A stretch of DNA of 64,000 nt from Lineus longissimus (taxonomy: Eukaryota; Nemertea; Pilidiophora; Heteronemertea; Lineidae), in the NCBI RefSeq assembly GCF_910592395.1, contig NC_088314.1, positions 14,324,001 to 14,388,000 on the forward strand. The letters run 5' to 3'. The position numbers and the translations under genes are program-made. The notes under the pieces were generated by a model. The model did not search any database, was not told the origin of the DNA, and worked only from the letters and a program-made list of their open reading frames with translations. The first letter of the stretch is position 1. Each line of letters opens with the position of its first letter. This document shows positions 2,024-35,200 of this stretch, one piece after another.

Positions 2024-2245
2024 TGGTGGCAGCGAGGTGAAAAGACTCAAGCTTCCCGAGAAATGATAGACTGTATAATTATTGCGTTAATCTAAAGTAA
2101 TCTGGGTTGAAACCGGTCTCGGAAATCCTGCCGGTAAACTACACGTGTGTGACTGTACTGTGTAGCGTGTACATTGACTCTGTACGATACTGTACACTCG
2201 GGTGTACACTGCCCCTCGAACGACGTTTGTAACTAGAACTTTGAA

Positions 2246-2974
2246 ATGGCACGTCCTGTCCAGGGGATAAGGCCCCCAAACCCTCCTGATTTTAAAGATG
2301 TATCTAGCATCGCAGAGAACTGGAGAATTTTTAGGCAGAAATGGACAAATTATGCCATAATTACAAACTTGGCTGCTCAGGACAGGCCCTATCGTGATGC
2401 CCTGCTACTACACACGATCGGGGACGATGGTCTTCGTATCCACAATGGATTCAAGTTCGATACCCCGGATAATGAGCGGACTGTGGCAGAAATTCTTACG
2501 AAATTCAACATTTATGCTATTGGCGAAGTGAATGAAACCTATGAACGTTTCCTATTCAACCAACGGATGCAAACGGGGGATGAAACATTCGAGTCATTCC
2601 TATCTGACATACGGAATAAAATCAATACCTGTAACTATCATGCTGACTCTGTCGATTCAATTCTCCGGGACCGTATTGTGCTTGGCATACATGACCGCGA
2701 GACACAGAAACTCCTGCTGAGGGAGAGGAATTTAACATTGGAAACGTCTATCAATATCTGCAAGGCGGCAGAAAATGCAACGGTGCAGGGGAAAGCCCTC
2801 GGCACAGACTTAGATGGTACTAGCGCTGCAAGTGTCAAGCGTGTTAAGGACAGAAACTCGTGGCCTAAAAAGCCTCTAGGTGGGGCTACCTCAAAAGTGC
2901 CAGAGGCCCAATATGGGGCAGCTGCAGTTCCGACTAGGGAATGCAAGTTCTGTGGTCGGGAACACCCTATGTGA
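2246..2974 (+). CDS. Gypsy gag (nucleocapsid/capsid), interrupted by in-frame TGA
   Basis: Gag packages the element RNA. The 242-residue ORF starts at an ATG about 220 bases after the 5' LTR. It has the tryptophan-containing capsid N-terminal region typical of gypsy gag (ENWRIFRQKW) and ends inside a CCHC-type zinc knuckle (CKFCGREH). The TGA at 2972-2974 falls between the knuckle His and its last Cys. The same frame then continues through the rest of that knuckle, a second knuckle (CSQCHGENHFRAKC) and straight into protease. Splitting the knuckle makes a programmed gag/pol readthrough site unlikely, and a CGA-to-TGA change at a CpG is the simpler reading. Readthrough is not excluded. Confidence 0.88.
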   Translation: MARPVQGIRPPNPPDFKDVSSIAENWRIFRQKWTNYAIITNLAAQDRPYRDALLLHTIGDDGLRIHNGFKFDTPDNERTVAEILTKFNIYAIGEVNETYERFLFNQRMQTGDETFESFLSDIRNKINTCNYHADSVDSILRDRIVLGIHDRETQKLLLRERNLTLETSINICKAAENATVQGKALGTDLDGTSAASVKRVKDRNSWPKKPLGGATSKVPEAQYGAAAVPTRECKFCGREHPM

Positions 2975-5809
2975 AAAACGGATTGCCCTGCCTGGGGCAA
3001 AACGTGCAGTCAGTGTCATGGCGAGAATCACTTCCGGGCAAAATGCAAAAAACCTGGTGTGCTCAAAATGGTTAGTGCTGATGCTGATGATGATGATGAA
3101 AATGACGATTATTGGATGGCCAATGTCATGACTGGTAAACGCAAACGAGATATTCTTACCGCCAAAATGGAGGTCAATGGAACTCACCTCCACTTTCAAC
3201 TGGATAGTGGGGCTGAAGTTAACACCTTTTGCCAGAGGTTCGTAAAAAAGGAACAGGTAAAAGACACCCCCCAGCGGCTCGTGATGTGGAACAACACGAA
3301 GGTACAGCCACTAGGGGAAACCACACTACTGGTCATAAACGTTCGCAATAAGCTACGATATCTGGTGAAATTTGTGGTGGTGCCTAACAGTCTCAGTTGT
3401 TTGTTAGGCCTCGATACCATTCGCGCGATGGAACTCATTACCGTCAATGCTGACAAATTTATTGCACAAGTAAAGAAACAGGAACTTGGTGATCTAGGTG
3501 AGGCACATCTGTGTGTGGACACGGACGTCAAGCCACGTGCTTTGCCTTGCAAGAACGTACCCGTCGCTATAAATGGGGATGTAAAGCTTGAACTTGAGCG
3601 TTTAGTGGAGATGGGTGTCCTCCAGGGGGTTACTGAACCTACGCCATGGGTTAGTCAAATGGCAGTTGTTCGGAAACCCAATGGAAAACTTAGAATCTGT
3701 ATTGACCCTCAGGCATTGAACGTTGCCCTAATGAGGGAACATTACAAGTTACCTACTGTTGATGATGTGTTACCCATGCTTCATGACGCAAAAGTGTTCA
3801 GCAAATTAGATGTCAAAAATGCATTCTGGCACATTAGGTTAGATGAGGCGTCTAGCTTACTAACTACGATGATTACTCCATTTGGACGTTTCCGCTGGAC
3901 TCGTCTTCCTTTTGGGCTCAAAGTATCCAGTGAAATCTTCCAGCGCAAACTTACAGAAGCTCTCAGCGGACTTGACGGTGTTTTTACGATTGCGGATGAT
4001 ATCATAGCTGCTGGGTGTGGCAAAACGAAGAGTGCTGCACTCGAGGACAATGACTCTAAGCTTGAAAAGTTGTATCAGAGATGTGATGAGCGTCACATCA
4101 TCTTGAATAATGATAAAAAGGAAGTAGGCAAACCAGAAATTAGATTTCATGGACACCTTTTTACAGAGGAGGGTGTTAAAGCAGATGACTCAAAAGTGGA
4201 GGCAATCATGAGGATGCCTAACCCCACTGATCTTCCAGGTGTAAAACGTTTCTGTGGCATGGTTCAGTACATGGCACGATTTTTACCTAACTTATCCGCT
4301 GATCTTGAACCTATACGCGCCCTCACCCGCAAAGAGACCGCGTGGAACTGGTCGGGTGATTGTGACAAGGCTATGGACACTGTAAAGAAGAAACTGTCAG
4401 AGACTCCAGTTTTAGCCTATTTCGATACCAACAAGGATGTCATGCTACAGGTTGATAGTAGCAAGGATGGTGTTGGTGCGGTACTCCTACAGGATGGCCG
4501 ACCTGTGGAGTATGCGTCACGCTCGCTGTCCTCGGCAGAGCGAAACTGGGCGCAAATCGAAAAGGAGCTGCTTGCCGTGGTGTATGGTCTGGAAAGATTC
4601 GATCAATATACTTATGGGACCAAGGTGGTCGTAGAAAATGATCACAAACCTCTCTATTCGATTCTTCGCAAGCCACTCAGCCAAGCCCCAAAGCGTCTGC
4701 AAGCGCTGATGATGCGAATTCATCGATATGACGTTGATTTTCGTTTTCTGAAAGGTTCAGAGTTGATAATTGCAGACACGCTGAGCCGAGCATATCTGGA
4801 TGTGCCAGATACCACAACCCGCATATTAAACGTGAACTCTGCCTATACCATGTCTGATGCCAGACTTGAGGAAGTTCGCAAAGCTACAGACAATGACAAT
4901 GCTCTAAAAACCCTTGAATCCCTGATTCTGAAGGGGTGGTCAGAGTATAAACACTTGGTACCTTCAGACGTGAGGGTATACTTTGACTTCAGAGACACTC
5001 TTAGTTGTGACAACGGGATCATCTTAAAAGGCGAGGCTATTCTCATTCCTAGTTCACTCAGGCAGGATATCAAACAGCGTTTGCATTCAGCACATCTTGG
5101 CTATAATAGCATGGTAAGGCGTGCTCGTCGTCTCGTATTCTGGCCTGGTCTCGCTCAGGACATAAAACAGTTGGTGGCCTCATGTGAGCCGTGTCAGGCG
5201 CTGAGGGCCATAAACCCCAAGGAACCGTTGTTACCTCAAGATGATGGACGAGGCCCCTGGGATAAAGTGGCCAGTGACATCTTTGAAATCGAAGGACAGC
5301 GATATCTGGTCACCATTGACTGTTACTCCAACTTTTTGGAAGTTGATCCTTTGCCGTCTATGACTAGTGGTCGTGTGATTGCGATACTAAAGAAACATTT
5401 CTCGCGCTACGGCATTCCGAGGATTCTCATAACTGATCCGGGATCTCAACTTACGTCCAGTGATTTTCGAGAGTTTACCAAGAACTGGGGAATCACTCAT
5501 GTGGAAAGTTCACCGGGGCACCATAGTGCTAATGGCAAGGCGGAGGCGGCCGTTAAAGTCGCTAAACACCTGTTGATCAAAACTCGCAAATGTGGGACTG
5601 ACCCAAATTTGGCATTACTCGAGTTGCGCAATACTCCTAGGGAAGACACCGGTCGTAGTCCTGCGGAGATGTTGTTTGGCCATTCTACTCGTTCAGTGAT
5701 TCCGTATATTCAGCAAAAGCCTAGTGGTGGAGATTCAGTTTCTCTAAATCCGAGGAGGGAAAGACGGAAGGAGCGAATGAGACAGTCTCATGATAAAAAA
5801 AGCATGTGA
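2975..5809 (+). CDS. Gypsy pol: second zinc knuckle, protease, RT, RNase H, integrase
   Basis: This lies in the same frame as gag and is open from after the TGA at 2972 to the stop at 5807. Order of domains: second knuckle; aspartic protease (LDSGAEVNTF); reverse transcriptase with the catalytic box FTIADDIIAAG, an Ala in place of the common Tyr/Val before DD, as seen in some invertebrate gypsy lineages; RNase H (VDSSKDGVGAVLLQDG); the H2C2 integrase finger (HSAHLGY to CEPCQ); and the DDE core (TIDCYSNF, ITDPGSQL, ANGKAEAAVK). The second Asp box reads DPG instead of the usual DNG. The start is set by continuity with gag, because there is no convincing ATG for a separate pol. Confidence 0.93.
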   Translation, partial: KTDCPAWGKTCSQCHGENHFRAKCKKPGVLKMVSADADDDDENDDYWMANVMTGKRKRDILTAKMEVNGTHLHFQLDSGAEVNTFCQRFVKKEQVKDTPQRLVMWNNTKVQPLGETTLLVINVRNKLRYLVKFVVVPNSLSCLLGLDTIRAMELITVNADKFIAQVKKQELGDLGEAHLCVDTDVKPRALPCKNVPVAINGDVKLELERLVEMGVLQGVTEPTPWVSQMAVVRKPNGKLRICIDPQALNVALMREHYKLPTVDDVLPMLHDAKVFSKLDVKNAFWHIRLDEASSLLTTMITPFGRFRWTRLPFGLKVSSEIFQRKLTEALSGLDGVFTIADDIIAAGCGKTKSAALEDNDSKLEKLYQRCDERHIILNNDKKEVGKPEIRFHGHLFTEEGVKADDSKVEAIMRMPNPTDLPGVKRFCGMVQYMARFLPNLSADLEPIRALTRKETAWNWSGDCDKAMDTVKKKLSETPVLAYFDTNKDVMLQVDSSKDGVGAVLLQDGRPVEYASRSLSSAERNWAQIEKELLAVVYGLERFDQYTYGTKVVVENDHKPLYSILRKPLSQAPKRLQALMMRIHRYDVDFRFLKGSELIIADTLSRAYLDVPDTTTRILNVNSAYTMSDARLEEVRKATDNDNALKTLESLILKGWSEYKHLVPSDVRVYFDFRDTLSCDNGIILKGEAILIPSSLRQDIKQRLHSAHLGYNSMVRRARRLVFWPGLAQDIKQLVASCEPCQALRAINPKEPLLPQDDGRGPWDKVASDIFEIEGQRYLVTIDCYSNFLEVDPLPSMTSGRVIAILKKHFSRYGIPRILITDPGSQLTSSDFREFTKNWGITHVESSPGHHSANGKAEAAVKVAKHLLIKTRKCGTDPNLALLELRNTPREDTGRSPAEMLFGHSTRSVIPYIQQKPSGGDSVSLNPRRERRKERMRQSHDKKSM

Positions 5810-10456: not shown

Positions 10457-10603
10457 CTATAGTATCTGGCAACCCCAGCAGCACTGCTGCGGATAATCTG
10501 GAGAGTGCACCTTTCTATCTAACCCGTAAACCCAGAAGCGAGTGTTGACATCCTTCCAGGCGTAGGCACATTCAGTCACAGGGATTGCTCTGATTGTTTG
10601 ACG
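10457..10603 (-). CDS. SSUH2-like: SSUH2-like last coding exon
   Basis: Acceptor ...ttttcag at 10604-10606, phase 0 start, 48 residues and TAG. It encodes RQTIRAIPVTE and FWVYGLDRKVHSPDYPQQ, then a Cys-rich end (CCWGCQIL) that closely follows the conserved SSUH2 C-terminus. Confidence 0.93.
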   Translation of the reverse strand, partial: RQTIRAIPVTECAYAWKDVNTRFWVYGLDRKVHSPDYPQQCCWGCQIL

Positions 10604-13600
10604 CTGAAAATGATAACAAACTCAGTTTACTCGCCTCTAAGGCTTTCCCTCATTTAGGCTGAAATGCATAGTAATCGCTCACCAATATCGCGTCCTCGTA
10701 GCTCAACGAAAGCTTCCTATCTTTAAGATGATATGCATTCATAAACCACCACCACCAGCCAAGTTAGAAAACACAAATTCCTGACCTTCAAATGACCAAC
10801 TGCACTTAAAAAATGATAGACCTGCTGACTCACTGGTCTTAATATTCACGTGACACGCCACAGAGGCGCTTTGACATGCCACGGGCGCTCTCGCATGAAA
10901 ACAACTAGAGCAATGACCCCGCTTTTAAAATTTGAAAGGGCCGGTGTTTCTCATGTTGGTAGCAGGACAAAAAGTATGTCACTTTTTGCGTTTTCAATCA
11001 AAGTGGCCAAGTCAAGAATCACAACTGGCAGGCACAGTGTTTCATCTGAAAAGCACCGCAAGAAAAATCAGGCCATGTGCCTATTGAGGACTCGCCTAAG
11101 TCGACATCATGTCACCGTCACTATGCAGAAGTTGGCACCTGCCAAAAACCCCAAGCACTGAGAAGGTCAAATCCATGTACCTTAGTCCCCCCCCCCCCCA
11201 TCATCCCCCCTCCCCACTAATAGAACTTACCTGTTGCAGCTGCCGTTCTGAAGGGAAACACCTTCGATGCTTCTCAACAAGGCGTATAGAATTATCATTG
11301 ATTGCTTTGGTCGGATATGCCGTCACAGGCCAAACCTGGGGAAGGAAAGCAAATACATTTGGCCCTAGGCACATAATTAAAGAAGTCATTTTGTATATCG
11401 CGACTGCTGCTTTATTATTGAAAGCAGCAGCACTGCCATCTAAGCAAACTGGCTGTAAGTGCTTTATTAGGTGCAACCTGCTCTCCCCTTTATATCCCTA
11501 GTCGCAATGAAAAGTCGTTTACTGAAGAATATGTTCAGCAAAGAGTTGCTCATTGGTGAAATCAGGGCTACTGGCGTGGCCAGGGTTGCGTTTTCAGTAA
11601 AATTTGTGTATAACACATAAAGCGAATACTTTAGAACGACGGACCAGTCTTCCAAAGTCTAAAAAACTTAAGTCCAAGTTATAGTCCGTGTTATAGGTTT
11701 CTTATTTGAGTCAATATATGCAACTGTGTTTTCATCTTGATAGAACAAAGCCCATGCTTTCCTTAAGCCGAGGACACACTACCAAGAAAAATTGGCCAAT
11801 GGTGATTAATTCAATTGACTGCAGATGTCTTGTCATATTTGAACGGTCCGGCAATTCACTTGGCCAATGAAATTAGATACTCTCACCCAGTCTTGGTGAG
11901 TTGGTGGGGAGTTCTATATTTTCGCCAAGATTGCCACCACAGGGGGGCTACTTCAGGTAGAATTGTCGTGTGTGAATGGTTCACCAACTGTTTCGAGCAA
12001 GGAAAATGTAAACAAGAGGTTTCGTTTTTAACTCTTTCAAGCCCTTTACACCAAGAAAAAATGAATTCATGTTACTAGGCACTAGCTTTTTTTAGCTATT
12101 TGAGTCTACATTTCAAGGTGGAGGTCCGATTATATGTTTTTGACATGTAAACCCGTACTTTGAAGATGGTTGGCTGTTTTGAGAATGTCCATGGGCCTAT
12201 AAAACTACAGGTATATACCTGATTAATCAGGAGCAATGACAGCAGGGGTCTCATAAGTAAGCTGTGCATCAGGTGATCATGATGATTAAGCAATGTACCA
12301 GTTCCCTCCAAAATGTTTCCCTCCAGTGACGTCACAGACAGGTACAGGTAGCTAAAATTGTCTGGGCCTGACATTGGTGTGAACGCACAGTTGTTGAGGC
12401 CAGCAAGAGTGACTTGCCAGGTGACCCTACATCTGTTTTTGATCTTGGTGAGCAATAGTTGGTAGTGTGTCCTCGGCTTTACACACTACACTTACCTGGT
12501 CCATAGTCTGTTCAAAGATGAGGTTGCCCTTGACAACACGCACTAACTCATCAGGTAGGTCTGTCTCCTCCATGATGAAATCTTCAGTGTGATTGACACT
12601 GGACACAAAAAAATCAAAATAACAATAAATATCAAAGAAAAATATGGTATCAGTAAACTGGTTCAGTATAAGTATGAACTGTTTACTTTTCATTTTACAT
12701 GTTTTGCACATATATTAGTCCATTGGTTAATGCTATGTCCATCTGCGATCAACTGAAAGGTTCAGATCAGACTAGGGTTAAGAGTGAAGTCTGATGACAC
12801 CTATACCTCAGAATATAAGCCAAAACTTAAACATTTTAACTTAACCTTCAACATGGATGATGCATTGCAATTGGGGCCATCTAACATAGGAACCACCTTT
12901 ATTCTATATAGATCTAATGATACAGAAATGCTATCTGACAATAAGATCTGACAAGATCACAACGCTGTAGGCTATATTACAAGGCCATTGATGGTTATGA
13001 TTGAGAAGGAGCACCACTTTCAATATACTTACAATTTGACTGTCAGAGCAATGTAAAATTTAAGTTGGCGATGGCCCTTACAGGAAGGACACGTTACACG
13101 TCCATCACCTCCACAGGTATAGCATCTGAAAAGGCCAAAAATACACTTAGTCATAAGAAATGCTAATTGATACAGAAGAATAGCTACATGTACCTTACAA
13201 ATAATTAGTATGTCAAAGCCCAAAACCTTGTTGATGCACACACCCCTTTTGATTACAATTCAACATGCTGACCCAAAAAATTCCACCCATAAAACTGTCA
13301 ATTACTATTCATAATCACCTTGGTATCAACCCAAAATGTGTGCACTTTGACTAAATCTGTGCATAATCTTTTACAAAAATTTTCAAGTCTAGGGTTGAAA
13401 TAGTCTTTGTGGTACTAAGTATTCTCTTCTTCGGCTGGGTGGCCCAGAAGACTTTTCCCTTGCACAGTAGAATTCTATTGTGTATCCACTGTGTGAGGGA
13501 AAAGTTTTCTGGGCCACCCTGTAGTGTCAAGGTGCACAATATCTCGAGATCATGCCCAAGTGACTGTGAGTTGTATTGTGACATTTACTTGGCAGCATAT

Positions 13601-16600
13601 CATGGGATTCACCCGTTTGTTAGCCAAAATTAACCAGTATCAATTTTTTGGGGGAAAACTAACAATTTACATATATTTTCACCTTTAAGTTGCAAAATTT
13701 CATATACAAATATAATGAATACTGTGGTAAGTCACATTTTTAGCAGCATATTAAAGTAATATTGATGCAGCAATTGAGAAATTAACTAATTAATGAGAAC
13801 AAACATACATGAATAATGGTATGATGTAACATTTGTCTTGTAACTTCTGGCATGCTTGGAATAGGACAATATCCATGGCACATGAAACATAGGGATGTGG
13901 GAGTTTCACCCATACCAGTGACCTGGGTATACACATGCTAGTTGGTAGCACTAAATGGCAGGTCATATACCCTGCAATATGGTCAGGGAGGAACTCTGGT
14001 GTGATGGTAATGCTTTTTGGCTGAAAGTGGCTGAAAAGAACAATGAAATCAAATTTCATTGGCCTAAAGGAATCGTTCCAATAAGATGGTCAAAATCTCC
14101 TAGTAATTTGGTTGAAAATAATGTCAAATTTGATCACCAAAATGGCATCTAGAGGTCTCCATGGTCTCAGTTTTTGCAATGACCCAACAAGCATGTGTAA
14201 CCAAGCATATTATATACAAGTGAACATCAGTGCAAGTACAGTAGTGTTAGTTATTGGTGCTGTGGTGGAGCAACAGATCCAGTTAATGAAGGGGTGTCTT
14301 GCCCCTGGGGGTCACTCCTAACGACATATTTAGAACATCCTTGTACCAATAACTACATGATTGGGGGGGGGGGATATGTCAGCAAAGAGTGTTCCACGCA
14401 GGGAAAATTCTTTGAAGCCCCTTAATAGGCCCAGTTAATGGCTTTAAAAGCTATTAACTTGATGTGATTGAAAGGCCTGCATGTAATTGAGAGTGGCATT
14501 CCTGAGGGGCAAACTGCACTTGTCTGTCCTTTCAAAGATACTGAAGGAATTATTCCCAAGGAAATGAGGCCCTCCCGACTGTAGGGCTTGCACCAAGAGC
14601 CTTGCTTTCAGCAAGAAGTGTAATGTAGATGAGGACACTGGTTGGACACCCCTATCCCATCGACTCTGGATCTGTCACTGTTTAAGTGCTTAAGTTCAAC
14701 ACATACAAAACAGGAAAATGTTGGTAGTGGCATGTTTTGATAATCCTTCTCCTACCTGAGGCAAATAGTGGCTACAGATATCGTGTGAAACCAGGAGGTG
14801 CAGTGTAATTTTATACCTAATCAACAAGCGCTTACTTTGATTCAGACTTAGTGCTTTTTGATCAGTTTTTTTAACAAAGTAAGCCTGTAACGGAACTAGA
14901 GTATACTGATTGAGACTAAGCGGCTTTTGATCAGTTGTATAACATACACACTTGACCGAAATTACTCTACAGGGGCACCAGAATGCAGCTTACACAAAGC
15001 AAAGGACATGAAAATTGTGACAGGTACTGCACGTAACTATCCAAATGGTAGCATTGTGCGATTTTACTATCATCAAATTTGGAAAATTTTCTGTCCAATA
15101 AATATTTCTTTTCAACAGAAGTGGAAATAGCACCTAAAAAGCTGTTTTTTGTTATTCAGCAAATAGTCTACAACTTTGGTACCTTATCCCACTATAGTTT
15201 GCTGCAAGAGGATAAGAAATATTTCATGTCACTCTCATTTTCACAATTTTCTTGGAATACCTCATGACGAATCGTCATGTCCCATCGCTTTAATCCATCC
15301 AGAACTTCACTCTGTCCACGACCCCTCCAAATTTCCTCTGTACTAAGTGTGTGTGGAAAATTCCTAGGCTGACACCTCGCCTTTTTTCGCAGCGGTTGTG
15401 GCAGGAATGAATTTTTGAATGGATTATAATGATGGGACAGGATGTACAGACTCATTTGAGGTAGGTATAATGAAAATCCACACAGCAATTGTGAAAATAA
15501 GAGCAATATGCAACAATTCTCAACATCTCAGAACAAACTCTAGTCTACAGTTCTGTGAGCTAGTCCATGGTTTAGGTACCTTATCCTTCCACTGCTGTGG
15601 CAACGATGACATGGCCCCCAGTGGTTCCCACCATCGCGGTGGTGCATCACACGGCCATGGCCACCACAGCGTGTACAGGTGTTACGTCCACTTCCACCAC
15701 AACGGCGGCATCTGATACAACCTGTTGCATGACAGGTATGACAAGGCTTTAAAGAAACACATCGTGGAATAAGACAGAGTCTGAAGAGAAGGCCAAGTAT
15801 TGCCAATACGTACACTCCTTTCTGAGTATTAACAGCAACTATATATAGCCAGTCCCTTAAGAGTTTGAATGTGCAGCTATGGATACACCCTCACCTAATC
15901 AGTGGTTTTCAATATACTCCCCCTCTCGATATTTCAATATTTTGAATACGAGGTAGGAGTATAGCAAAAACCTGATCTCGGGATGCTTTGGATAAGGCAG
16001 AACTCAACGATCCCTTGGTAACGTCATCTCTTTTTATTGTGGCATTTACTTTTTTCAGGAAATCACGGAGTACAGCCCGATGCTAGGTGCCTTTAAATTG
16101 CACTTTCACTCAGTATTCTTCAACTGAACCACAGTTAAGGCAACATGTGTTTTGAGAGACTAGGGGAAAAGGACACACAAAATAAAAGGAGTGGATTAAA
16201 GGTTGACCATAGGTACCGTCATTTTGGCTAGGCCTCCAAATTCTTAAGCAATTGGATCTCTTTCCAAATGAATTGAATGCTCATTTCAAGGGCGGGAGTC
16301 CATTCTCTTGAAAACAACAGACTCCCGCCCTTAAAATTAGCATTCACTACGTTTTCAAGGAGTTCCAATTGCTTTATGATTTCAAATTCTAGCAAAATGG
16401 CGGTACCTATGGTCAACCCTCAAGGAGTTTAGTTAGGTGATATAACATTAGATATAATATTAAAAGACCTTCGCACACTTTGGACATTTTATGCAACATT
16501 ATGTTTCTGCAGGCAACCAATTGATATGCTACTTTGGCGTGCTAAACCATACATTTAATGACACTGCTGACCTGCAGAAAGATCTCTTAGTGACAATAAC

Positions 16601-19600
16601 ATCTGGTACATGTAGTGACAGGTTGAAGTAAAATGTGCCTTTAAAAATGCAGCGAAAACAACCAAACAGGGCAGAAAAAGCATTGTCACGTTCAAGAAAA
16701 CATCTGTATTGCAACACCTTATGAAAATTTTCATTTTCTGATATTATTGGTAAAGGTCTTGTGCTCTTCAACAGCTGTCAATGTATTGATTAGCACCTTA
16801 GACCAGCAACATCTCAAAAATCTATGTCCTCCTTTTTGGTCACATAAGTCTGGTCATTTCTGTCCACCAAAGATCTGTTTGAACTTCTAAGATATATAAA
16901 CTACTAAAGGGGGTCTAATTAATTTCAGACCTTTTTTTGAAATTTTACGTTTTTCCTAATACATGTACGTTCCCTTTGTGTAGGAAGGTCTTTCAGTTAT
17001 AAGACATAGACATAACAACAACAATATTGTTCATCCCATCAAGCCATTGTTTGAATACCTCTTGCGCCCATCACCACCACAGCTATGGCATGATTGAACA
17101 TGACGTTCACCGTCACGCATGCGGGTGACTCTCCCATCACCACCGCAGGCAGAACACCTAACCTGCCCCCTTCCATGGCAGCGGCCACACTGCACCTGTC
17201 CAGTTGCATGGCAGCGGTGACAAGGCTAAATAAAACAACCAAAAAACTCAGTTACTCTTTCATCCTCACAAAAAAACCAAAAAAAATACTTCAGCAAACC
17301 TCATCGAAATTTTTCCAGCACAACTCATATAGCTCACAAATCTTTATATTCTGAAAAGTTTCATTTCTGAAAAACCCATGCATGGCTGAAACAGAAATCA
17401 ACTGCATGTAATAAAAAAATGGACGACTCAGTAGTAAAAGAATAATGGAGAGATAATGCAAATAAGGAATTAGGAATTAGGGTCCAGAAAGAAGGTCAAA
17501 GCAGCTTCTTTATTGAAAACTCAGCTGCATTGAAGACACAACCCTTTCCATGTGGAATTTCCCAAACCTTATCAAGCACAGCTTGTGTAATTAACTTGGC
17601 CTATTTCTGTAAGTTTTAGGAGATTTTTTGGGCTGTACCAAAGCTACAGACAATATAATGATTGATTTGATGACATTTTCAGTAGAGATATATAAATCTC
17701 CCTCGGAAAAGTATTTTTTCCAGGTTGGACACCTTGGGGGTTGGCCCAGGGGGGCAAAGTTATCAAATTCCCCCTTTTCGTAAAATGGTTGACGCAATAA
17801 TATAACATATTATTCTGAAAAAAACATTCACTTGCTTCTTTCTTACTTTTCCTTCATTCTAGGGTCAAAACCAAAACATTTGGTGGTAGTTTCATTCCAA
17901 CCAATCTGGGGGTCAGGGGAAGACAATCTCAGATGTCTTTTTATATCATCAGATCAAAAAGGCTAAAAAGCAGGAAAGCATATGTACAGAACTTCTTAAG
18001 GATCACAAAATCACTATCTACTCTTGCAGGACCTCGGGGTCCATTTCGACCCTTCTGACCACACTTGGCCTAATGGACCACCTTGAATATCCCACCCCCT
18101 CTGGCGCACAATTATTGAGGTCATCATCTGCTTCACCATGATGGCTATATGACTGCCCACATGCACTAAAGCATTGTAATCACACTCACTCTCATAGATG
18201 CTTTATACCAGGTCACTATCATCATTCAAAGGGTCCGAATCTGACCCCCCCCTCCACACACAAGCACATGCAGTCCCTAAGACCATCTGAAATCAAGTTC
18301 CCCGCCTACTCAGCAGTGTATCATCCTTGGCCATTCATCGCATATACGTCGCAGACACATTAGCAATACAGTGCCTCCATCTTTCAAGACATAAATAGCT
18401 GGCGATAATTTCTCGCCAGCTGCAGGTAAAGCTTATTGATAGCGTCAGCCAAGAATATCTCACCAGACGCATGGGAAGGGTTAAGGGACTGTCACTGTGC
18501 TTTTTGTAACAATAGCACATCTCTCAGCCATATTCAACCGGTGAGCACAAAAGCTCCAGGCCATTTTATTGTTGTTTATGCTTATGTTGGCATTTTAGCA
18601 GAGCTATGATGTCTAAACTAAGTCCATGGTAGGCCAAGGTGTTGAATGGGATCAAGATCAAATCAAAATTTCTACCAAAAAATATTTTGAATTAAACGAG
18701 TGCTAATTAGCAAAGTATTGGTCTTTTTTCTGATTTCATGCCAGTTTTTGCCCTCAGGTGGGGAATTCAAGAACCAGAAGAGAATGAAATTCAGTGTCAG
18801 AGGTCAACTGTCCAAGAGGATGATGTGTATCAAGTTTTAAGTTCATAACTTCAGTATTTCCTAAGACCTCTAAACCCGAATTCACATATCAAATGGCAAT
18901 TTGTTTGCGTCTTTGAAATGACGGAGCACTGTCACTGGGCAGCAGCTATTAAAGCAGGCAAGATAAAGTTCGACAAAATCGCTAATAGGGGTCTCTCCCA
19001 TCTTTAATGATGTCAAAACTATTCACGCTTGAACAAGGGATATGTTTAATGGTGAATTAAACATGACCATCGCAAGTGCCCTTATATTATTCACCTGAAG
19101 ATGGCCTATTTAACCCCCCTGCCCCTGCCTCTAGTTCCCCTTTAAAGAGGGATCTAACATTTGATCAGCAAATATATATGAACAGAAGCAGAAGATTTAG
19201 AGTATTGGTATATAATCATTCACATTTCCTTGTAATTGGATGAAAGCTAGCTTAAGAAATGACGCAAATGTTAAAAGCATTATAACTTTGACTTTGAAAC
19301 TAAAACTTTGATAACTCAAATGCAGAAGTTGCAAAAGCTAACTGGGATACCTTTTTCTCCCACTTCCAACGCATTGTTTACATGGGTCTTTGTGGGGCCG
19401 GCTATTATGATAGTGGGTTACTATTCCATCTCCACCGCATGCTGTACATGCAAGTCGACCCAAACCAGAGCAGCGACTACACTGATGTGATCCAGCCCCA
19501 CTGCAGCTGTAGCAATCCTTTGAGGAGTATTTAAGAAGAAAACAACTGTTTGCAAGAGAACATTTTCAGGACAGCAACTGTATTTTGATGGTCAATTACT

Positions 19601-22600
19601 AATGTTTTGAGGAATTTTAAACCAGAGTCAAGGAAACAAGGTGAACTGACTGAACATGGCCAAATCTTCATCCTACACAGCACAGACATAGGTTTTCCTG
19701 TATCCTGAGGAAATTAGGTGTTAATGTTCGCTTTTCCGACCCTGCACACAAACCCAATATGTTCCCTTCATTGGCTGAAGTACAGGCGAGCATCATCTTT
19801 AAGTCAGCATGAAATGGCACAAAGAAATCTTTGACTCGAGGTAGTGATGGCACCTCGGAGAAGACAGTGCTTTCTTTTCCGTCAGAAAGATAAAGCAACC
19901 AATGAAAATGTAAGTTAGGTTATCGTTGCTACAACGTCCATCATATTCCATAGTACTGATGCTCTGATGGGGCGCAATTGCTTCAGCCGATGAGGGTAAT
20001 GTACCAGGGGTTTGTGTCCAGGGCAAGAGAAGTGAACAGTTACCTCTGATTTCCTAAGGATGGTCTTATTGTAAATGTACGAATAATTCTAACTGGGGTA
20101 ATGTATACTAGGGAATTAGGATAGGCACTGGGTGACCCAAGTCTGCATGTGGTTGGGAGAGATATCAACTAAGGACCTGTTGGTTCCTCTGAAGTGTGGA
20201 CACCCATTAACTTCATCTTTGCTGTTATAAACAATACAATACAAGCAGTGGAACAGAAATGACTGACAAACCCACACATTTATAACATGCCATGTATGGT
20301 CTTGGGAGGAAATTACACACAAACGTTTTAGTTGCCACAACATGTGCCTCAACATGTGTCAAAAAATGTGCTTCAACATAGGTGAGTTAGACATAGTGAT
20401 GTGTTAGATGACAACGATTTCTTGAATTTCACATAGTTAATTCCTCACCACTTAAACAGCACCACCACATGACAAAAATTGAACTACAAATCTGGCAATT
20501 CTTTTCACCTTTTTGAAGGATGATGGGAAATACGACAGATATAACGTTAGGGGCTGATCTGGGAATGTTTGTGAGAAGGGGGTTCATCTTTGGTTGACCA
20601 ACAGTCACTAACAATAGTGCCTCTTTAGGCACATACTGGCAAGAAATTTTTTTAATCTAGATGCTACATTGTAGATGCAGTTTCAAACAATCCCAGACCA
20701 TACAATGTAAAAGGCAGAGATTTGACACAAACTTTGGTAATTTAAGATACAAATCCAAATGAAGTTCATTATTTCACATGGCAGTGCTGCTGGTTCACAC
20801 TGTTTTGTTTTTTTACCTAGTTCGACCTGACCCTCCACACCTGTGGCACATGCTCACACGACGGTGTCCCTCATGATCATAGTTAGTGACGCGACCGTCC
20901 CCACCGCATGAGTGACACCTATTGTTCCCCATACCGCCACAGTTGTGACACCTTATTTGTCCACTACCATGGCATTGAAAACACATCTGCGCAAAAGCAA
21001 TGTCAAAGGAAATTATTGTATCATACAAGTAAGGTAAAATGGGTTATTTGCAACCCCTGTCTAATTGTAGCCCTTAGCAATGTTTTTGATTCATATTCTG
21101 GTAACCATGGAATTATTCAACCAACCCAAACATGGATATGAAAGAGGTGACTCTTGAGTATCACAACATAAACAGTTTTGGATTTGGATTTTTGCAACAG
21201 GTTATGTAAGAGCTATGGCTATAAGTAATCAGACACATGCACAAAATAATTTGGGATCGAACTTTATACAGGTCTAAATTTTCCACACTTGCAGAGCATT
21301 GATATATTTGAAACTTGGTTCAGGTGATCAGTATTGAGTGTAGAGAATTCTGTATGCGGCATTGATGTCATTATCAAAAGTAAATTTTTCAGAGACACTT
21401 TTCTGACCAAATTAACCCCCTTTATGTACCAACAATGATACATTTGTGGTTTCATACCAGTTTATCTTAAATTATTTCGAAACAATGTTAATATTTTCAA
21501 AGTTACTGGTGTCTCTAGTTGAAGCCACACCACTGACTAGCAGCATTTCTCATGGTACATTGGTTGCATTATATTACCATTAAGTGGTGCCAGCTATAGT
21601 TTGGGTTGATACATGGCCGATAACTGAAACTACAGCTTTTGATGGCTCACGACAAGACCGTCAGCCACTTCAGAATATCACAAGCCGTTGTCTGACACAA
21701 GGTGTAATGTACAACAGAGGTGATAGATAGAACTTTGTGTTTTTACACCAGTTTTTACACCAGTCTTATTTGTGACGATATTGTTCAAATTGTTAGTGAG
21801 AGCATTGAAAGTCACTTAATGTGTTCAATAAATATCGTTTGATACCAGCAAAATCTTGTCATCAACCTAGATTGGAATAATATTCAAAGCTTTATGACCA
21901 ATAAAGGCCATAAACCTGTAAAAAAAAAGTTTTCATACATAAAAAAACATGCAATTTCAAATTTTAGTCAGGGGCTACAAATACCACAAGGTCACAGGGT
22001 ATTTGTTGCCCCTGACCACGAGTCTTGTATTGTCTCTCAGAGGCATTGTTTTAGATTAACCCTTTCACTGCCGGAGGCGCACTTCTGCGACAATCAATAT
22101 TATTCCCTTTACTGCCGGAGGCGCACTTCTGCGACAATTATCCATACACTATAAAACCATTGAAATTTCGTTATTGAGCGTGGTTAGCGTAAAGTTTGAT
22201 AGATGGCGCGGTAGTATAGATGGTTCAGCAAAACATGGCGGATTGTTTTATATTTCGATGTTTGGAAGTTTATCGAGTAATTTGAAGCCAAAATGACAAA
22301 GAAACTGACTGTGTCTGATGAGCTGGATAAAGTGAACGATTCGGACTCTGGTGAGGAGTTCGTCGATGATGATGATTTAGATCCTGACTTTGATGTAAAT
22401 GATGAACAAATTAGCGATAATGAGAGTGTGTATATTGTGTTTTGCCAATTATAGCTTTTTCCAAAATTTTTTCGTCCTCATTATAAATTCAAGATGGCGG
22501 TATGCAAATTAGGGCAAATTATGGTCCCATTTTGAAGAGTAGGCAACACTGAACAACATTTATATACATTGTTTTGCTCTATCTCCAGAGGCTTTCTCTC

Positions 22601-25600
22601 TACAGGGTGGAGAAATATCCATACTCAAAATCATGTTAAAACAAAGAAACCTACCGGCAGGTGAGGTAGCTAAAAATTAGAAGCTACCGGCAGTGAAAGG
22701 GTTAAGTACCCTAAATTGCAGGCTGCAAAATTGAAAGAGGTGCCACTATAAGATGCAGGCCGGTTTTAGTGAATCTGCCCGGAAATCTCTTGCGTAACCA
22801 AAATTATAGGTGAAAAAGGGGCTACAATTACCCCATTTTACCTTAAACGTAATAATTCCATCTTTTAGTTGTGTGAAAACATTTAGTTGTAAATTTTTAT
22901 AAACGTTCAGTTTAACCCTTTCCTCATCTGTTCCTTGCAGCTGGCGTACATAATTTGCCCAACTTGATCACATATCATCCATGCTGTGGTCAGTCATAAA
23001 CTTGTAGAAAAGGTTACCAGTTTAACCCTTTCCTTGTGGCTGCCATATATAATAAAAAATTGGCCCAACAAGATCACATGCTGTGGTTAACGAACAAAGT
23101 TTGCGAGCAATCCAACAGTATTGTGGGCAGATGGCACCTCGGCAGTTTACCTGATGATATCATCTGAATGATAGGTCCACTGGGTCGTTTACTGGTTTGA
23201 CTAGTTGTATAGTAATTTTCAAATTTTTGTCATGAACTTGAAAATTAATTCTGCACGTTGGCAATCATCAAACATGTCAAAATGAAAACTGTCAATTTTT
23301 ATTTTACTTCAGAAATTTTTGAGAATTGCAAAAATGAGGAGGCCATGGCGGTTAACATGATTTTGCAGCAGCTATTTTTAATCCTAAATGCAAGAACTCG
23401 TTTTTGAGCACCCAAAATAATTTTTATCTCCTGATGATTCCATAATATGAAACGATGCATTCCGTGTCAGTGCTTACCTTGACTACAGCAGTATGAGGCA
23501 CCTCAACCTTTTTCTGGTGGTTGTTAAACATGCCATCAGGATGAACTTCGACAGCCCATGGGGGCGGAGGGGGGCCATTCTCTGGCCCATCGATGAACTG
23601 CCCATGGAAGGGAACGTGTTCATAATTGGTCGAGCGGCCTTCACAGTATGTCTCTAGGATGTACTGAAGACAGAAGAGCAGGTCAAATGTTCATAGTTGA
23701 ATGAGCACATTCTCATTATGTCTCAAGGATATACTGAACAGACATACATTTCAATCAATATGACCAATGGGTACACAGGGCATTGCCTCACCTAATATTC
23801 AGCCACACCGAAGTACATTTGTAGGCAAGGTGTTTTCTAATGAGACTACCTTACTCACTGCACTGCTGATCCCGATACATATTTTCAATTCATTCCCTTG
23901 AATAAAACCAGGGACCAGCCATCTCAGTTTTGTGAGTGGGGGGCTAGGGTTTTTAATACCTCACCTCTTTTTCAAGAAACAACCTTTCTGTCAAATCGCA
24001 TAAAACAGTAAAAACAATAAGCTTGAGGCATCCCTCAGATTGAGTTCGACCCACTTACGTGTAGTGCCGTTGACCCATCTATTTGGGCGATTGTCATGTC
24101 CTTTGCTGCCTTTTTGCCCCAACAGCAGTTCTCAGCCACCTTAGCCAACATGGCTTCCCTTGCCTCATCCTGGTTCAGATTGGCAACACTAAAAACAGAA
24201 AGTGAGAACTTGAAACATCTGATGATGCAACAACACGTGTTAGGTTTCAAAATCACCTGGCTGTTGTTGTGGTTGTATTTACTAACAAGATAACAGTAGC
24301 CAATGGTCAGGTGTACAAAACAATAGGTAACTCTATATGTCACCCACCATGGCAAAATGGGTCGCGTGTGGCATAGAAGATGAGCCTAAAATGACACCAG
24401 GACATAATAGAAGAAATTGATACACTCAGATTTCACAAAAGGCAGACAATAGTGAAATGAACAACCAGTCCGTCTCAACATGTCAAGCTCGGAGCGACAT
24501 GCGACTCATTTTACTGTGGTGGGTCACATATAATATGTAGAACATGCAGAAATCGTAGACCAAATATCTTATTCAAGCTTTAAACAAACAAAAATCCCAA
24601 CAAAGACACTGCACCTTTTTACTGTTTTAAAGACCATAGAGTACTTACTGAGCAAACTCCATGTGAGGAGGGGGTCCAGATGGTGGAGGTGGTGGTGGTG
24701 GAGGAGGCATGGCTGACACTGAAATAAGCAAATGCATCATTGGAATTATTTCATAATTGGAGGCAGTCACCATAAGGTCAATACTTGATAAGAAGGGGTA
24801 TATCTGCTGGAAGGCCCTTCAAACTGGAGCAGATTGAGTTACACCTGTCTGCAAAGGTTGTGTAGAGATGGACTTTTACACAGAAAGTGTCGAAAAATTT
24901 GTGCACATCTCCGACCAACTGACATAAATATCTTGTGTTTATTTCAGCAAGGAGGATAATTTATGTTTAACAAGGCCCTGAACATGATGAAACTTACAAG
25001 ACACATCAAAAATGTGATCACCGCGCAGTGTTAACTTTTGACTCATTTTTTGAACCTCCCTTAGTGGACACCTCTCTATTAAGGAAAACCTCTCCACTAG
25101 TTTTGGCCCCAAATTGGTTGTTTCAATTCAATTTGACCTCTCTAAACTGGACACCTCTAGGGACAGCATATGTCAGCCCGAGGGAGTCCTTAAGAGAGAG
25201 GTTCTACTGTTACTGTTAAATGAGAAGTTATTTGGTGACATACTATAGGTGTGTATGCACTATTCAATTGAAATAATCAAGTGAGGGAAATATGGGCTAT
25301 TCTCGAAGTAAAAGTATATCTGAGCCTCATCTGTAAAACGTGTGCTCAGACTAGTGATAAAAACAGTATCAATCGCTGCCAATTCTTTATCTGATTGCAT
25401 TACCAACCAAAACTTCTACAAACGAGACAAGACCACCATTGATTTTTAAGCCTATTAGCAGCTATAAATTGTCAATATTTGACCGCGTCACATCAAATAC
25501 TGCATACTGCGTAGTTGTGAATCTGAAATCTGAAAGTGCTTGTAATCGTCAGAAGAATAATGAATATTGAGTACATTGTACCTCAATAGAGAATTAGCAT

Positions 25601-28600
25601 GCCCACTTTCAGTGCCTAATTTTGACATTAAATCACCGATACCTAATACAAACCACCGATACTTACATGCACATGTGCACCAAAATGAGGTTCAAACACA
25701 TCATATTTTATTTATTGACAATTGTAGCAAAAAAAACTGATGGCATGTCTGGTTTAGGAAATAGAGAGGTTTTTGTAACGATTTCGAACGTCAGCGTTGA
25801 CTCCATATTGAGCACAGACACATGCACTGGGGTGACAACTTTTCCACCATCTTGACGGTCATCTCTATTTCATGCACTCTCAGGTCGAGTTAGGTTTTAT
25901 CCACTTTCTTGCTATCTGAAGTCACATGACGAGTTTGATGGTGTGCACTAACATGCATTGGAAACAATTCTAGCATAGGGGACTCATACGTCGTATCCTC
26001 TGTGACGTGTTGGAGTAATGAGCAACTTTTGTCTTTATCTTATCTTGGCTGTACCTACTGAATGATGAGTCATTACCAAAAGAAACACTTACTTTGACCA
26101 AATCCTCCAACTTGTTCATAGCCGCCATAAGTCTGAAACTGATTCAAGTCCGGTGGTGGCCCATCTGAAATACAAAAATTATGCATAAATATAATACCTC
26201 AGTGAAAATGCATCATGCAAGGATTTCTTCTTTTTAGGTGAGGTCAATGAAATAATATCGCGATGTCAGGCACTTTGTATGAGGCTAAAGGAAGCACTGA
26301 TATCATGATGTCTGGTGACCAATTATCACGACAATGATTCAAACCTAAAGATTTTTTTCATACACGACTTTGCTGATGCATAACGAATGCGTTGACATCT
26401 CTTGTAGTGTTTAAGGGATGGCAGTTTATTATGTAATCACTTGCCACCCCTTCCATTAACTAGCTCAACTGCAAATGCAACAAGCATGATTATAAGCTAT
26501 AATAATGACAAGAGGCCCAAGGGCCTGGCGCTCAGCTGAGTTGTTGCTGCGTTGTTCGTATATATTACATTACTCGTCAAACTCTACTAAACTAAGGACT
26601 CAAAGCCTGAGGATATTAGCTTCTGGATGTGTAACAGTGAATTACGGTAGACTGGCGCAATCTACTTCAAGCAAGCTCCACCCTTGCAATGTGTGCGCAA
26701 ACAGATAACCTAACCTATATTGGACCATCAATTCTACACACAGCAACATGATTCATCCTCAGCTGTTACCATGATGATGATGATGATGATCCTTTTCGCA
26801 AATTGGTCGTCTTCTGTCTTTCTTCCATACTTCAGTGCCACCGGATGTAGTCTGCCCTTGTGGAGGGATCCTTTCAGCACCGGGACACAAGAATCCATGC
26901 GAATTGAATCAAATGGAGAGACTAGCCCAATCACCCGCTTTTGGCTGGGTAGAAATGGGTAAATCTCGCAGACTGGACCTTAAACTCTACTGCCGACGTG
27001 TGAGGCCGGTCTGACAGATGAGTAAGTGGGGTCCACCTAATGCAGAAGGCACCAGTTTCCCTAACTAAAAGGGTAACATTAACAAAATGCTCTACCCAAC
27101 TCTATTATTGCCTAAAGGCCTGTGTACACTAGTAAAATATTAGCAACATTTTTACATTTCCAGTTGCAACAAATGTTGCAAAAATGTTGCGTAGTGTGTA
27201 CAGAGCAAAACGCGTCTTACAACATGTTGTAAAATTGTTGCAAATTAAATGCAATGCAATTCTTTGTTGCATGTTGTAAAAATGTTGCAAACTCTTCAGC
27301 CAATCAGAAATAGGATTTGCGTCATGTGATCTATCGGAGTTCATGTGACTTGAACAAGAAGCAGGTATAGCAACTCTCAAGTGAGTGTCTTGCTTTGTAG
27401 GGTGATGAAACCTTTTCTAGAAGTTTTTGTGTGACGGCTTGTCAGTCAGCCGCAACTCCTTTAGGCTGCGTATCCATAGGCTGTTCCGTGCCCTGCACAA
27501 CATTCCCTTTTTACCGCCTGGCGCGCCACACGGACAATGAACCTTCGTTGGTGTTATTGATCGTTCCCATAGGTTATGCCGTGTCACATTGCGGGCTTAT
27601 ATGCACTGTGGATTGGGAATATAGGCCCATATTGGGATTGAACATGTCCATTCTTTTGCGAGTGAACAACACGGAAGCAATGTCTGAGGCGAAATTAATT
27701 CAAGAGGTTCATCAACGGGAACTACTCTGGGACCCCGAAACTGATGATTATCATAACGAGCACGAACCTGTAATTTGTTGCTTAAAAGTCAGGTTTTATA
27801 TACATGTACATGTCAATTTGATGTTGCAAGTGAAAATACAAGTTACTTGTATTTTCATTTTCAATATTCATAAGAAATTGTCTTCTGAAATAATGACAGC
27901 GTGCGGATAAATGCGATTGACCGCTGCGAAATGAGGACTACAAAGGCCTACATGACCAAAAAGGAATATCCAATGGAGACTCAGGGCATAGTGCCAGGTC
28001 ACAAGGCTCTTACGCCATAACGCCACACTACACAAGGGCATACCCTATGGATACGCGGCCTTAACAGGCAGTGGTATGCCCCATCATCCACCCTCATTTT
28101 GATCCAGGGCCTGGTCCATATTCTCTTTGGTTATTTCGCCGCCTCTTCCGTCTCTCAACAATGACAGCTAAAATTGCTGCAGAAGCACTCAAAACACATC
28201 TTCTCTCCTTGGAATCATCCATTTTCCCTCCAAAATACCTATTTCCCTTTGTTCCCACTAAAAAGTTTGCAACAATTTACCAACATGTTGTAAAAATGTT
28301 GCGAATTTGTTGCAATTATGTTGCTAGTGAACACAGGGCCTTGAAGGGCTTGTTGCAAAATTGTTGTAAAAATGTTGGTAAAATGTTGGTAAAATGTTGG
28401 TAAAATGTTGGTAAAATGTTGCTAATATTTTACTAGTGTACACCCTGCTTAACCCTTTCACTGCCGGAGGCGCACTTCTGCGACAATCAATATTATTCCC
28501 TTTACTGCCGGAGGCAGTAAAGGGAATAATAAAACCATTGAAAACCATTGAAATTTCGTTATTGAGCGTGGTTAGCTTAAAGTTTGATAGATGGCGCGGT

Positions 28601-32269: not shown

Positions 32270-35200
32270 ACGACGGACGCCACGATTTGGGATAAGCTCA
32301 CCTCTGCTAAGAGGTGAGCTAAAAAGTATCCGCACCATGCAAACGATTGATCAACTGGTCACAAAATAGACCTTAAAGAGATCCAATCGTGGCACAAGTC
32401 TTTATTTAGACTAGCTGAACGTGGTAAAAATAACTAAATTGGTGATTACTTTTTATGCAGCTCAAAGGCTACATAGTCAACAATCTGAGAGGAACCCAAA
32501 ACTGCTGACATTTATCATTGGAAGCTTATTCCCGCCTAAGGTTTTAACTGGGTTGTTCAAAACTCCCCATTTTTATAAGGGTTTTGCTATAGGTTTCCTT
32601 TAATTCATATGACATTAAATGATGTAACTGACAAGAAAGTATTTGGACATCCCCTGGGAAAACAGATTAGTGCAAACACATTGACATAAAGCCAACTGTC
32701 ATATTAATAATACAAATGGGTCCTTGACAACTAAAATGTTAAAGGCAGTCTACTTAGCAGCCAGGTACGTATGTAGGTAAGATAAAGTTACACAGAGTTG
32801 CCATAGGGCTCTCAGTCAGAGTTCTCGACAATAATTTTTTGGGGCCAGGTTTTTGCACAATCTAGAATTCACTTCAGTTCTGTCCAGGTTGGCAGCAAAA
32901 TCTGTCTGGGGAAACCGGCCTGCTAAAGAATCACTTGGTTTCTGTGAATATCAAACTGGGAAGTTTTATGGTGCACTTTTCATCAAAAGTATAAATTTAC
33001 AAGGTATCATTTCTCATAATGTTTAAGGTGAATATTTGACATATCGAACATGTCAAAACACAAAACTAGTTAGCTAATTCTGAAAACAATGGTTACTGAG
33101 GGTTTAACTCTTTCACTATAAGGTCATTGTTTTATTAATCAAGTATGTGCAAACAAGTTGGAGACGCTTGATTGGCAAGTGTAATTAGTATAAGTCTTTC
33201 AATCAGAAACATGTTTGATTTGTCAAAGTTTGTATTATGTCTCCTTGGTGATTTCGTGTTGTTATAGTTTTCATGGTAAATCAAGGATTGTATAATGGTC
33301 ATTCAGGTCTTGGACTCCAGCCTGGGAACACACATATTTGGACTTCCAATCTGTATTTGTAATTGTAACTATCAATGTATTAGCTTTCATGAAAGTTTAT
33401 TGAATTAGAAGAAGTGAACAGAACCTACAGGACTCCAATTTATTTCTACCGCTAGTCTCCTTCCTTTTTCCCCCATAATATTTGGTGGAGAACCCAAAGG
33501 ATCCCAGAGAAACAAGAGGAAGACGCCAAGCGAGTGACTCAGCTCATCATGACGATATCGACGCTACCTCAGAGTATCACATCGGTGATAGCCACTCTTG
33601 GATTGACCAGTATGCCAAACGAATGGGATATCTCAGCAACTGCAGAAGGAACGTCGCTAACTCTCTTCTGGAATGCTGATGGAGCTTTAAAACGAACTGC
33701 TGCACCTCTAAGGATCAAAGGTTTGAAATCACCTTCAACACTTCGTCGTGATAAAAACCGTATGGAACTGTATTTACAGAAAATCAAAGGACGAAACGTG
33801 AGTGACAATCCAATTAGCATGCCTTCACGGAAGATGGTTTCATCAATAGCCAAGCCAACTTTTGCAGAGACACATGTCGACAATCCAGAGGACTTCTCCC
33901 ATCAAGAAGATTTTACATCAATTCAAATTAGGACTAGGAGTGTGTCATCACAAACTGATGTAGACTCCGTGCCTACGAGAGTGTCGGTTGGTGTTCAGTG
34001 CAAACCAGAAACAAACACCTATGCGAGTCAGTTTGCTCCAGAGACTCACACCGTGACAGTACAATGCAGCCAAGAAAAGGTCTCAAAGTCAGTACAGTAT
34101 GTGTGCAGCAGCACGTCTGTTTCTGTACAAGTTGCCTCTGAGCGCAACTCAGCATCCGTCCAGTGTGCTATGGCTAGTCAGTCCGACAATGACAAGGGGA
34201 GGGCGGACAGAAAACCCTCAACAGTTTTCGACTCGGGACACGAGCATGTGATGCCAATCCAGAATGTGCACGGTGATGAATTACAGAAAGATTCAATGAA
34301 CAGTTTGGCCACGAAATTTAATTCATGTGGAAATGAAATTGGTAATAATGATGTGATAAGTGTCTTGAGTATCTACCAAGGACAACATCCGATGAATATG
34401 TTTCCACAATATCCCATTTATAGGATACCGAACAGGGATTTACTTGGTTGCACACAGTACATCGCTATCCCTATCCAGTCACTAAATGGATGTGAGAGTA
34501 AAACTATTTTCTTGCCAAATCGATGCACAATAGCGGACTGCATCAGAGAGTATTCAGAGTTTGATACGTCTCTAAATGAACAGGATGTTTTTGTATATTT
34601 TGATCACCCAAGACTAAAGCGAACATTCACATTAGGAAGCAACGCCCCACTCCGTCGATTGCCAAGCACAGGAACACAAATGATTGGACCTAAAGGTGGC
34701 CTTTGTAATCAAGTTAGCATCACCATGGACTTCAGTAAGGCAAATGCAATGTTAAATTTAAGATACTGAACAAAAACAAAAAGAGTAGGGTTTCAGATGT
34801 GTGGACAACTGGAATTTGCAGGAGCAAATCTCTTAAAACAACAGGAGTATTTTATGGGGTAAATTTTGTTATCACATGACACTGAATATAAACTGAATTT
34901 TAGAACAATGAAATGATTTGATCTGCGTTTGACATTTATACTGGACTTCTGGCCACATTCTGAAGACGCAACTATTTTCATCTGCCTCGAAAAAGATGTT
35001 ATGAATTATAAAATTGACTTTCATTTTGATGAGTTTATGTGCACAATATAGCTATTTTGACTATGGAATAGTGTGAAGAATTATGTTCACTTATTGAATT
35101 TCATGTTACTTCATTTTGCAATTTCATGTATACTTTTATATGGTTTCGTCTTTAGTGACTTCATTTTGTAATTTCATCTATACTGCTATTTAATCTTGTC

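Follow-up and report, generated by a model that had tools for sequence, protein, structure and literature searches.

In a 64,000-nucleotide stretch of chromosome 7 (C7) of the bootlace worm Lineus longissimus (C7:14,324,001-14,388,000; hereafter the window, meaning the whole stretch analysed), an SSUH2 gene on the minus strand (gene 1; ATG at 37958, stop at 10457) probably holds four tandem exons that form a mutually exclusive cluster, here named cassettes A to D. As judged from sequence, the most likely reading is that of a real, old and constrained four-exon cluster, used in a mutually exclusive manner and accompanied by a two-exon sister in a paralogue (gene 2), and one gene would probably make several versions of a chaperone-like protein. 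A preliminary description of this DNA had reported four paralogous exons of 170, 167, 167 and 167 nt with four CxxC units each, entered in phase 0 and left in phase 2, between an upstream constant exon (23663-23478) ending in phase 0 and a downstream one (13125-13033) starting in phase 2. Its coordinates and lengths proved right to the base, the homology was recovered by a family profile and the phases were confirmed; the four-exon observation is real, and the earlier interpretation of swapped modules is partly supported.

The genome scanned comprised 391,118,348 bases in 30 contigs, C7 accounting for 21,155,069 bases, and the published bootlace-worm assembly is given as 391 Mb, with a chromosome 7 of 21.16 Mb, long-read and at chromosome scale (PMC8593623). 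A protein search with the cassette-C spliced product as query (304 aa) returned P0001, annotated as "protein SSUH2 homolog isoform X2 [Lineus longissimus]" (436 aa), which is 100% identical over the query and contains the cassette-C product exactly; its cluster entry represents three member sequences. At E <= 0.001 there were 122 proteins, of which 120 were listed, the named ones being mostly SSUH2 homologues, and P0002-P0080 could be aligned over the whole core at 45-71% identity. The SSUH2-like identity proposed earlier is upheld by this whole-core alignment, the six CxxC units and the shared C-terminus. The exons of gene 1 are as follows.

37721-37958, minus strand: coding exon 1, with a proline/glutamine-rich start (MHMQQGY...), from P0001 mapping; donor AGA/GTGAGT.
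26093-26164, minus strand: coding exon 2, from P0001 mapping; donor AAA/GTAAGT, start set by eye from the codon split.
24649-24718, minus strand: coding exon 3, from P0001 mapping; donor TCA/GTAAGT, start set by eye.
24059-24188, minus strand: coding exon 4, from P0001 mapping, borders read from the sequence.
23478-23663, minus strand: upstream constant exon, exit phase 0 (family profile, E 2.4e-31).
20817-20986, minus strand: cassette exon A, 170 nt, four CxxC (splice borders, family profile, key-residue count).
19351-19517, minus strand: cassette exon B, 167 nt, four CxxC (splice borders, family profile, key-residue count).
17059-17225, minus strand: cassette exon C, 167 nt, four CxxC (splice borders; present in the public "isoform X2" protein).
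15580-15746, minus strand: cassette exon D, 167 nt, four CxxC, one motif-4 glycine replaced by serine (splice borders, profile, residue count).
13033-13125, minus strand: downstream constant exon, entry phase 2, zinc motifs 5 and 6 (family profile).
12496-12598, minus strand: coding exon 3' of the zinc region (profile, P0001 mapping, frame modelling).
11231-11335, minus strand: penultimate coding exon (profile, P0001 mapping, frame modelling).
10457-10603, minus strand: last coding exon, ending ...CCWGCQIL and the stop codon (profile, P0001 mapping, frame modelling).

All four cassettes have an AG before and a GT after them at homologous positions, each carries eight zinc cysteines, and the downstream constant exon contributes its first base to the terminal AG of each, giving an arginine codon. 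A profile of the SSUH2 cassette region, which includes C (through P0001) and none of A, B and D, matched the four cassettes in the window at E 4.7e-19 to 5.5e-13; its only other match there was the downstream constant exon, weakly (E 2.4e-05), and a window scan reading through stops revealed no decayed fifth copy. Published criteria for predicting mutually exclusive exons include similar length, conservation of splice sites and frame, and a homology score (PMC3228551); cassettes A-D are of similar length, share GT-AG sites and the frame at both ends, and have normalised homology scores of 0.40-0.53 among themselves (cut-off 0.15). That the array arose through faulty assembly, or consists of whole genes repeated in tandem and read as exons, is hardly conceivable, even though some animals, e.g., Ptychodera and Patiria, have several SSUH2 genes on contigs with the same listed length. 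Each constant exon occurs once in the window, and profiles of five other coding segments each found one place, as is not expected of a tandem gene array; the downstream constant-exon profile scored best at its own place and matched the four cassettes more weakly, as expected for CxxC repeats. Moreover, the cassettes cannot be taken for haplotype copies, because they are only 44-53% identical at the protein level, and the published assembly is described as long-read and chromosome-scale. The introns within the array measure 1299-2491 nt. The array introns also contain inverted repeats resembling small transposons (16196-16423, 19702-20061, and 21030-21058 with 22817-22845), which may have spaced the cassettes.

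The reading frame separates single inclusion from every other outcome. When the 16 possible cassette sets were modelled over the region spanning the upstream constant exon through the last exon, the four single-cassette messages were open to the natural stop, as had been claimed, and the remaining 12 (none, two, three or four cassettes) all met a stop codon lying 269-705 nt short of the final exon junction. The preliminary statement that none, or two or more, would break the frame is wrong in one detail: all four cassettes together restore the exit phase, and that message is blocked by eight stops arising from B and C read in wrong frames. Nonsense-mediated decay usually follows a 50-55 nt rule and, since the stops lie 269-705 nt upstream of the last junction, messages with zero or several cassettes should be removed by it. 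On this point we commit ourselves: decay of wrong messages would be built into the gene.

The two-exon sister lies 3.7 Mb away on the same chromosome (C7 ~18.064-18.075 Mb), corresponds to P0002 (71% identical to the query) and has the following cassettes.

C7:18,071,313-18,071,141: gene 2 cassette 1, 173 nt, same phases as gene 1.
C7:18,067,471-18,067,296: gene 2 cassette 2, 176 nt, same phases as gene 1.

The frame logic recurs in gene 2, where both single sets are open and neither of the two others is. Use of the second cassette is a prediction only, because it is absent from P0002.

Evidence for constraint comes from the divergence of the cassettes. Across the six gene-1 cassette pairs, synonymous sites are saturated (pS 0.66-1.11; pN 0.34-0.45), and the 15 key positions, defined as Cys or Gly invariant or nearly so in 75 aligned homologues, are kept in full by A, B and C (15/15 each) and in 14 of 15 cases by D. 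In neutral simulations started from C, 14 key residues were retained in none of 100,000 runs, whether the divergence was set to 0.5, 0.8 or 1.0 changes per site; at 0.25 changes per site, 109 of 100,000 retained them with an open frame. Since synonymous saturation is combined with retention of key residues beyond neutral expectation, long-standing selection appears to have maintained all four cassettes. These data bear directly on the suggestion that C is the only working exon and the other three are ancient duplicates, spliced rarely or never, which we regard as unlikely. C is the cassette found in a protein and D lacks one glycine; in addition, C is nearest to other animals, being the best-scoring of the six Lineus cassettes for 80 of 114 homologous cassettes (A, 14; the first of the paralogue, 7; D, 6; B, 5; the second of the paralogue, 2; the 114 are 118 family segments minus P0001 and short ones). 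However, neutral decay would have destroyed frames, cysteines and borders, and with synonymous sites saturated, open frames, eight cysteines and AG/GT borders persist in all four; A, B and D thus do not look like neutral relics. An "isoform X2" label by convention means that more than one isoform is annotated, and this label, together with the three cluster members of P0001, is a hint, and only a hint, of further annotated isoforms, which also speaks against sole use of C.

With respect to how one cassette of a mutually exclusive set is chosen, steric exclusion was rejected because the array introns, at the lengths given above, are too long. Incompatibility of U2 and U12 splicing involves mixed major and minor splice sites and clusters of exactly two exons (PMC6071210); it was also rejected, with four exons in the array and no acceptor exceeding 6/8 to the U12 branch word (B and D reach 6/8 at -9). 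The donor of B starts with GTATCC, which is the start of the U12 donor consensus, and the partner acceptors do not look like U12 sites. Among the array repeats listed (of 40 direct families the 20 largest, and of 46 inverted pairs the 25 longest), no intronic element was common to all cassettes. The donors themselves differ: +5 is not G in all four gene-1 cassettes and in five of the six cassettes of both genes, compared with two of 17 constant donors (Fisher p 0.0034; donors of both genes chosen by hand). Active choice during splicing, by regulated use of sub-optimal cassette exons, is likely. The same donor pattern, together with the premature stop in 12 of 12 non-single sets, would suit an array that serves mainly as an off-switch, in which skipped and double messages decay and thereby tune the amount of SSUH2 while the protein differences matter little. 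We give this explanation a low probability, since conservation of the coding frame is not required of a poison exon, yet all four cassettes keep a constrained zinc module.

Several observations weigh against mutually exclusive use of all four cassettes. Cassette C alone was found in a protein of gene 1, and a search for partial products of this gene, which scored 7994 candidates sharing most words, yielded none among 35 hits, no hit being named Lineus or near-identical. Compared with C, the other three cassettes lie at a greater distance from the SSUH2 family. Docking/selector complementarity of the first or last intron with the others (ungapped, in one genome) was within the range of 25 dinucleotide shuffles, and the U1 pairing energy was alike for cassette and constant donors (p 0.36). 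Finally, P0002 has no isoform label and represents one sequence, and the second cassette of gene 2 lacks annotation support.

The swapped segment belongs to a zinc module conserved across the family. In the aligned homologues (75 of the 120 listed), ten of the 12 cysteines of the six CxxC units are invariant and the other two nearly so, in agreement with the earlier proposal that four units from a cassette and two from the constant exon make up the family norm; among 118 cassette segments obtained from the 120 listed hits, five fall short of eight cysteines, and at least one of these five comes from a mispredicted gene. Zinc motifs 2-5 align with the four DnaJ/BSD2 motifs by profile, and weakly by fold (1exk, 2ctt, 6ekb). 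Scores for the DnaJ central zinc domain PF00684 were 19.4 bits for P0001, 24.0 for P0002 and 23.5 for the 86-aa zinc region, all below the Pfam gathering score of 32.7 required for membership, and no J domain was among the Pfam matches. By the Pfam cut-off the region falls outside that family, although it is likely to work like the DnaJ central zinc domain. Lineus SSUH2 resembles the DnaJ-type cysteine-rich domain and the BSD2/ZnJ2 zinc chaperones in the four motifs matching its motifs 2-5, and differs from them in adding an outer motif pair (1 and 6), in lacking a J domain and in carrying four of its six motifs on a swappable exon. Modelling suggests that a cassette is half of a nested zinc hairpin, and two of three zinc sites would therefore straddle the splice junction; zinc pairing between cassette and constant exon is predicted on this basis.

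In the mechanism that we propose for the mutually exclusive cluster, each message would take a single cassette, and its zinc motifs 1-4 would combine with motifs 5-6 of the constant exon in a nested three-zinc, DnaJ-like hairpin. The choice of cassette would swap the tip and face of the hairpin and leave the rest of the protein unchanged. Regulatory proteins acting on the sub-optimal cassette exons would choose during splicing, and exclusivity would be enforced at least after splicing, as early stops in wrong messages lead to nonsense-mediated decay. We infer the use of all four cassettes, the decay and an altered client specificity. The most detailed version, i.e., four chaperone-like proteins in which motifs 1 and 2 pair with motifs 6 and 5 across the junction, splicing swaps client specificity by tissue or stage, and the array predates the split of two nemertean SSUH2 paralogues that kept four and two cassettes, is offered tentatively, and as a whole we would sooner doubt than assert it.

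Mutually exclusive tandem exons are known as a kind, for instance in Dscam, Mhc, 14-3-3zeta and MRP1, with FGFR2 IIIb/IIIc as an example of the decay model (PMC6071210; PMC9741552), and what is new here is an SSUH2 zinc module, plus a two-exon paralogue. As in those systems, the Lineus cassettes are internal exons that adjoin one another, are homologous and agree in length and phase, and a message would receive one of them. As in the FGFR2 model, stops exclude multiple inclusion, and in Lineus SSUH2 the sole phase-restoring multiple is itself barred by other stop codons; the result is a four-member cluster where stop codons alone forbid every wrong combination. In contrast to clusters controlled by RNA structure, no docking/selector signature was found in the Lineus array by the ungapped test. 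For tandem exon swaps, an enrichment has been reported among ion channels and further membrane proteins (PMC9741552), and the host gene here is SSUH2 rather than the channel, motor or receptor of known systems. What is swapped is a zinc module, and the protein family that carries it is DnaJ-like and little understood. The four natural variants, all built on the same scaffold, show where residues can vary with the zinc frame preserved, and they constitute a natural swap experiment on SSUH2 binding.

The earlier remark that no such case was known for the family agrees with the literature searched (titles and abstract openings, most subscription journals not covered), where exon choice in SSUH2 is unreported. 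Among the matches listed, including those for tandem or mutually exclusive exons with zinc fingers, in nemerteans, or in molluscs and annelids, there was no SSUH2 case; PMC8195618 is among the SSUH2 papers that mention isoforms or mutually exclusive exons, and none of those listed concerns SSUH2 exon choice. Among the protein homologues compared, no pair had both flanks at least 95% alike and a different cassette, and in pairs with flanks above 80% and unlike cassettes either the flanks differed too or P0091, apparently mispredicted, was involved. Since no flank-matched cassette-swap pair was found, the same array elsewhere is without support among these homologues. P0080 scores best with A, yet its flanks are nearest to mollusc proteins.

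As regards the age of the array, the shared flanks of genes 1 and 2 are 76% identical, and their closest cassettes are A with the first of gene 2 (52% pairwise, 45% in a six-way alignment); C with the first gives 49%. In 38 family pairs with flanks 72-80% alike (101 proteins), mean cassette identity was 61%, and it was <=49.5% in four, one being Lineus gene 1/gene 2 and one involving the mispredicted P0091. Because the gene 1/gene 2 cassettes have diverged beyond what is typical for their flank identity, the evidence leans towards a cassette duplication older than the gene split; fast cassette evolution could also give the low identity. A tree built from 56 alignment columns and 44 cassettes (seven from Lineus and 37 hand-picked for spread out of the 118 in the family) left the genealogy undecided, with four of 41 inner branches starred and the outgroup not on one side of a branch; a single origin was not rejected for A-D (p-AU 0.463) or for A-D plus the two cassettes of gene 2 (0.58). 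A third SSUH2 gene at C7 ~19.81 Mb (L011, L012) has its zinc region interrupted by an intron following motif 2, whereas motifs 4 and 5 are not separated by one; no cassette array was found there. Loss of this post-motif-2 intron may have given rise to the single-exon cassette of genes 1 and 2.

Other elements were also identified in the window. At 2237-5809 (plus strand), Gypsy-like retrotransposon frames lie in two pieces, the second with reverse transcriptase, RNase H and integrase domains, and a protease match was below the cut-off. A long frame at 44393-46975 (plus strand), with PHD-like, OTU-like, FLYWCH and MULE transposase domains (PHD and OTU matches below Pfam cut-offs), looks like a composite transposon gene. 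Inside the SSUH2 gene, a 437-codon open frame without a Pfam match runs on the opposite strand (33456-34769, plus strand), and the first long intron holds two segments, 33138-33543 and 35433-35766 (minus strand), with near-identical translations ~2.3 kb apart, a recent duplication or a repeat element.

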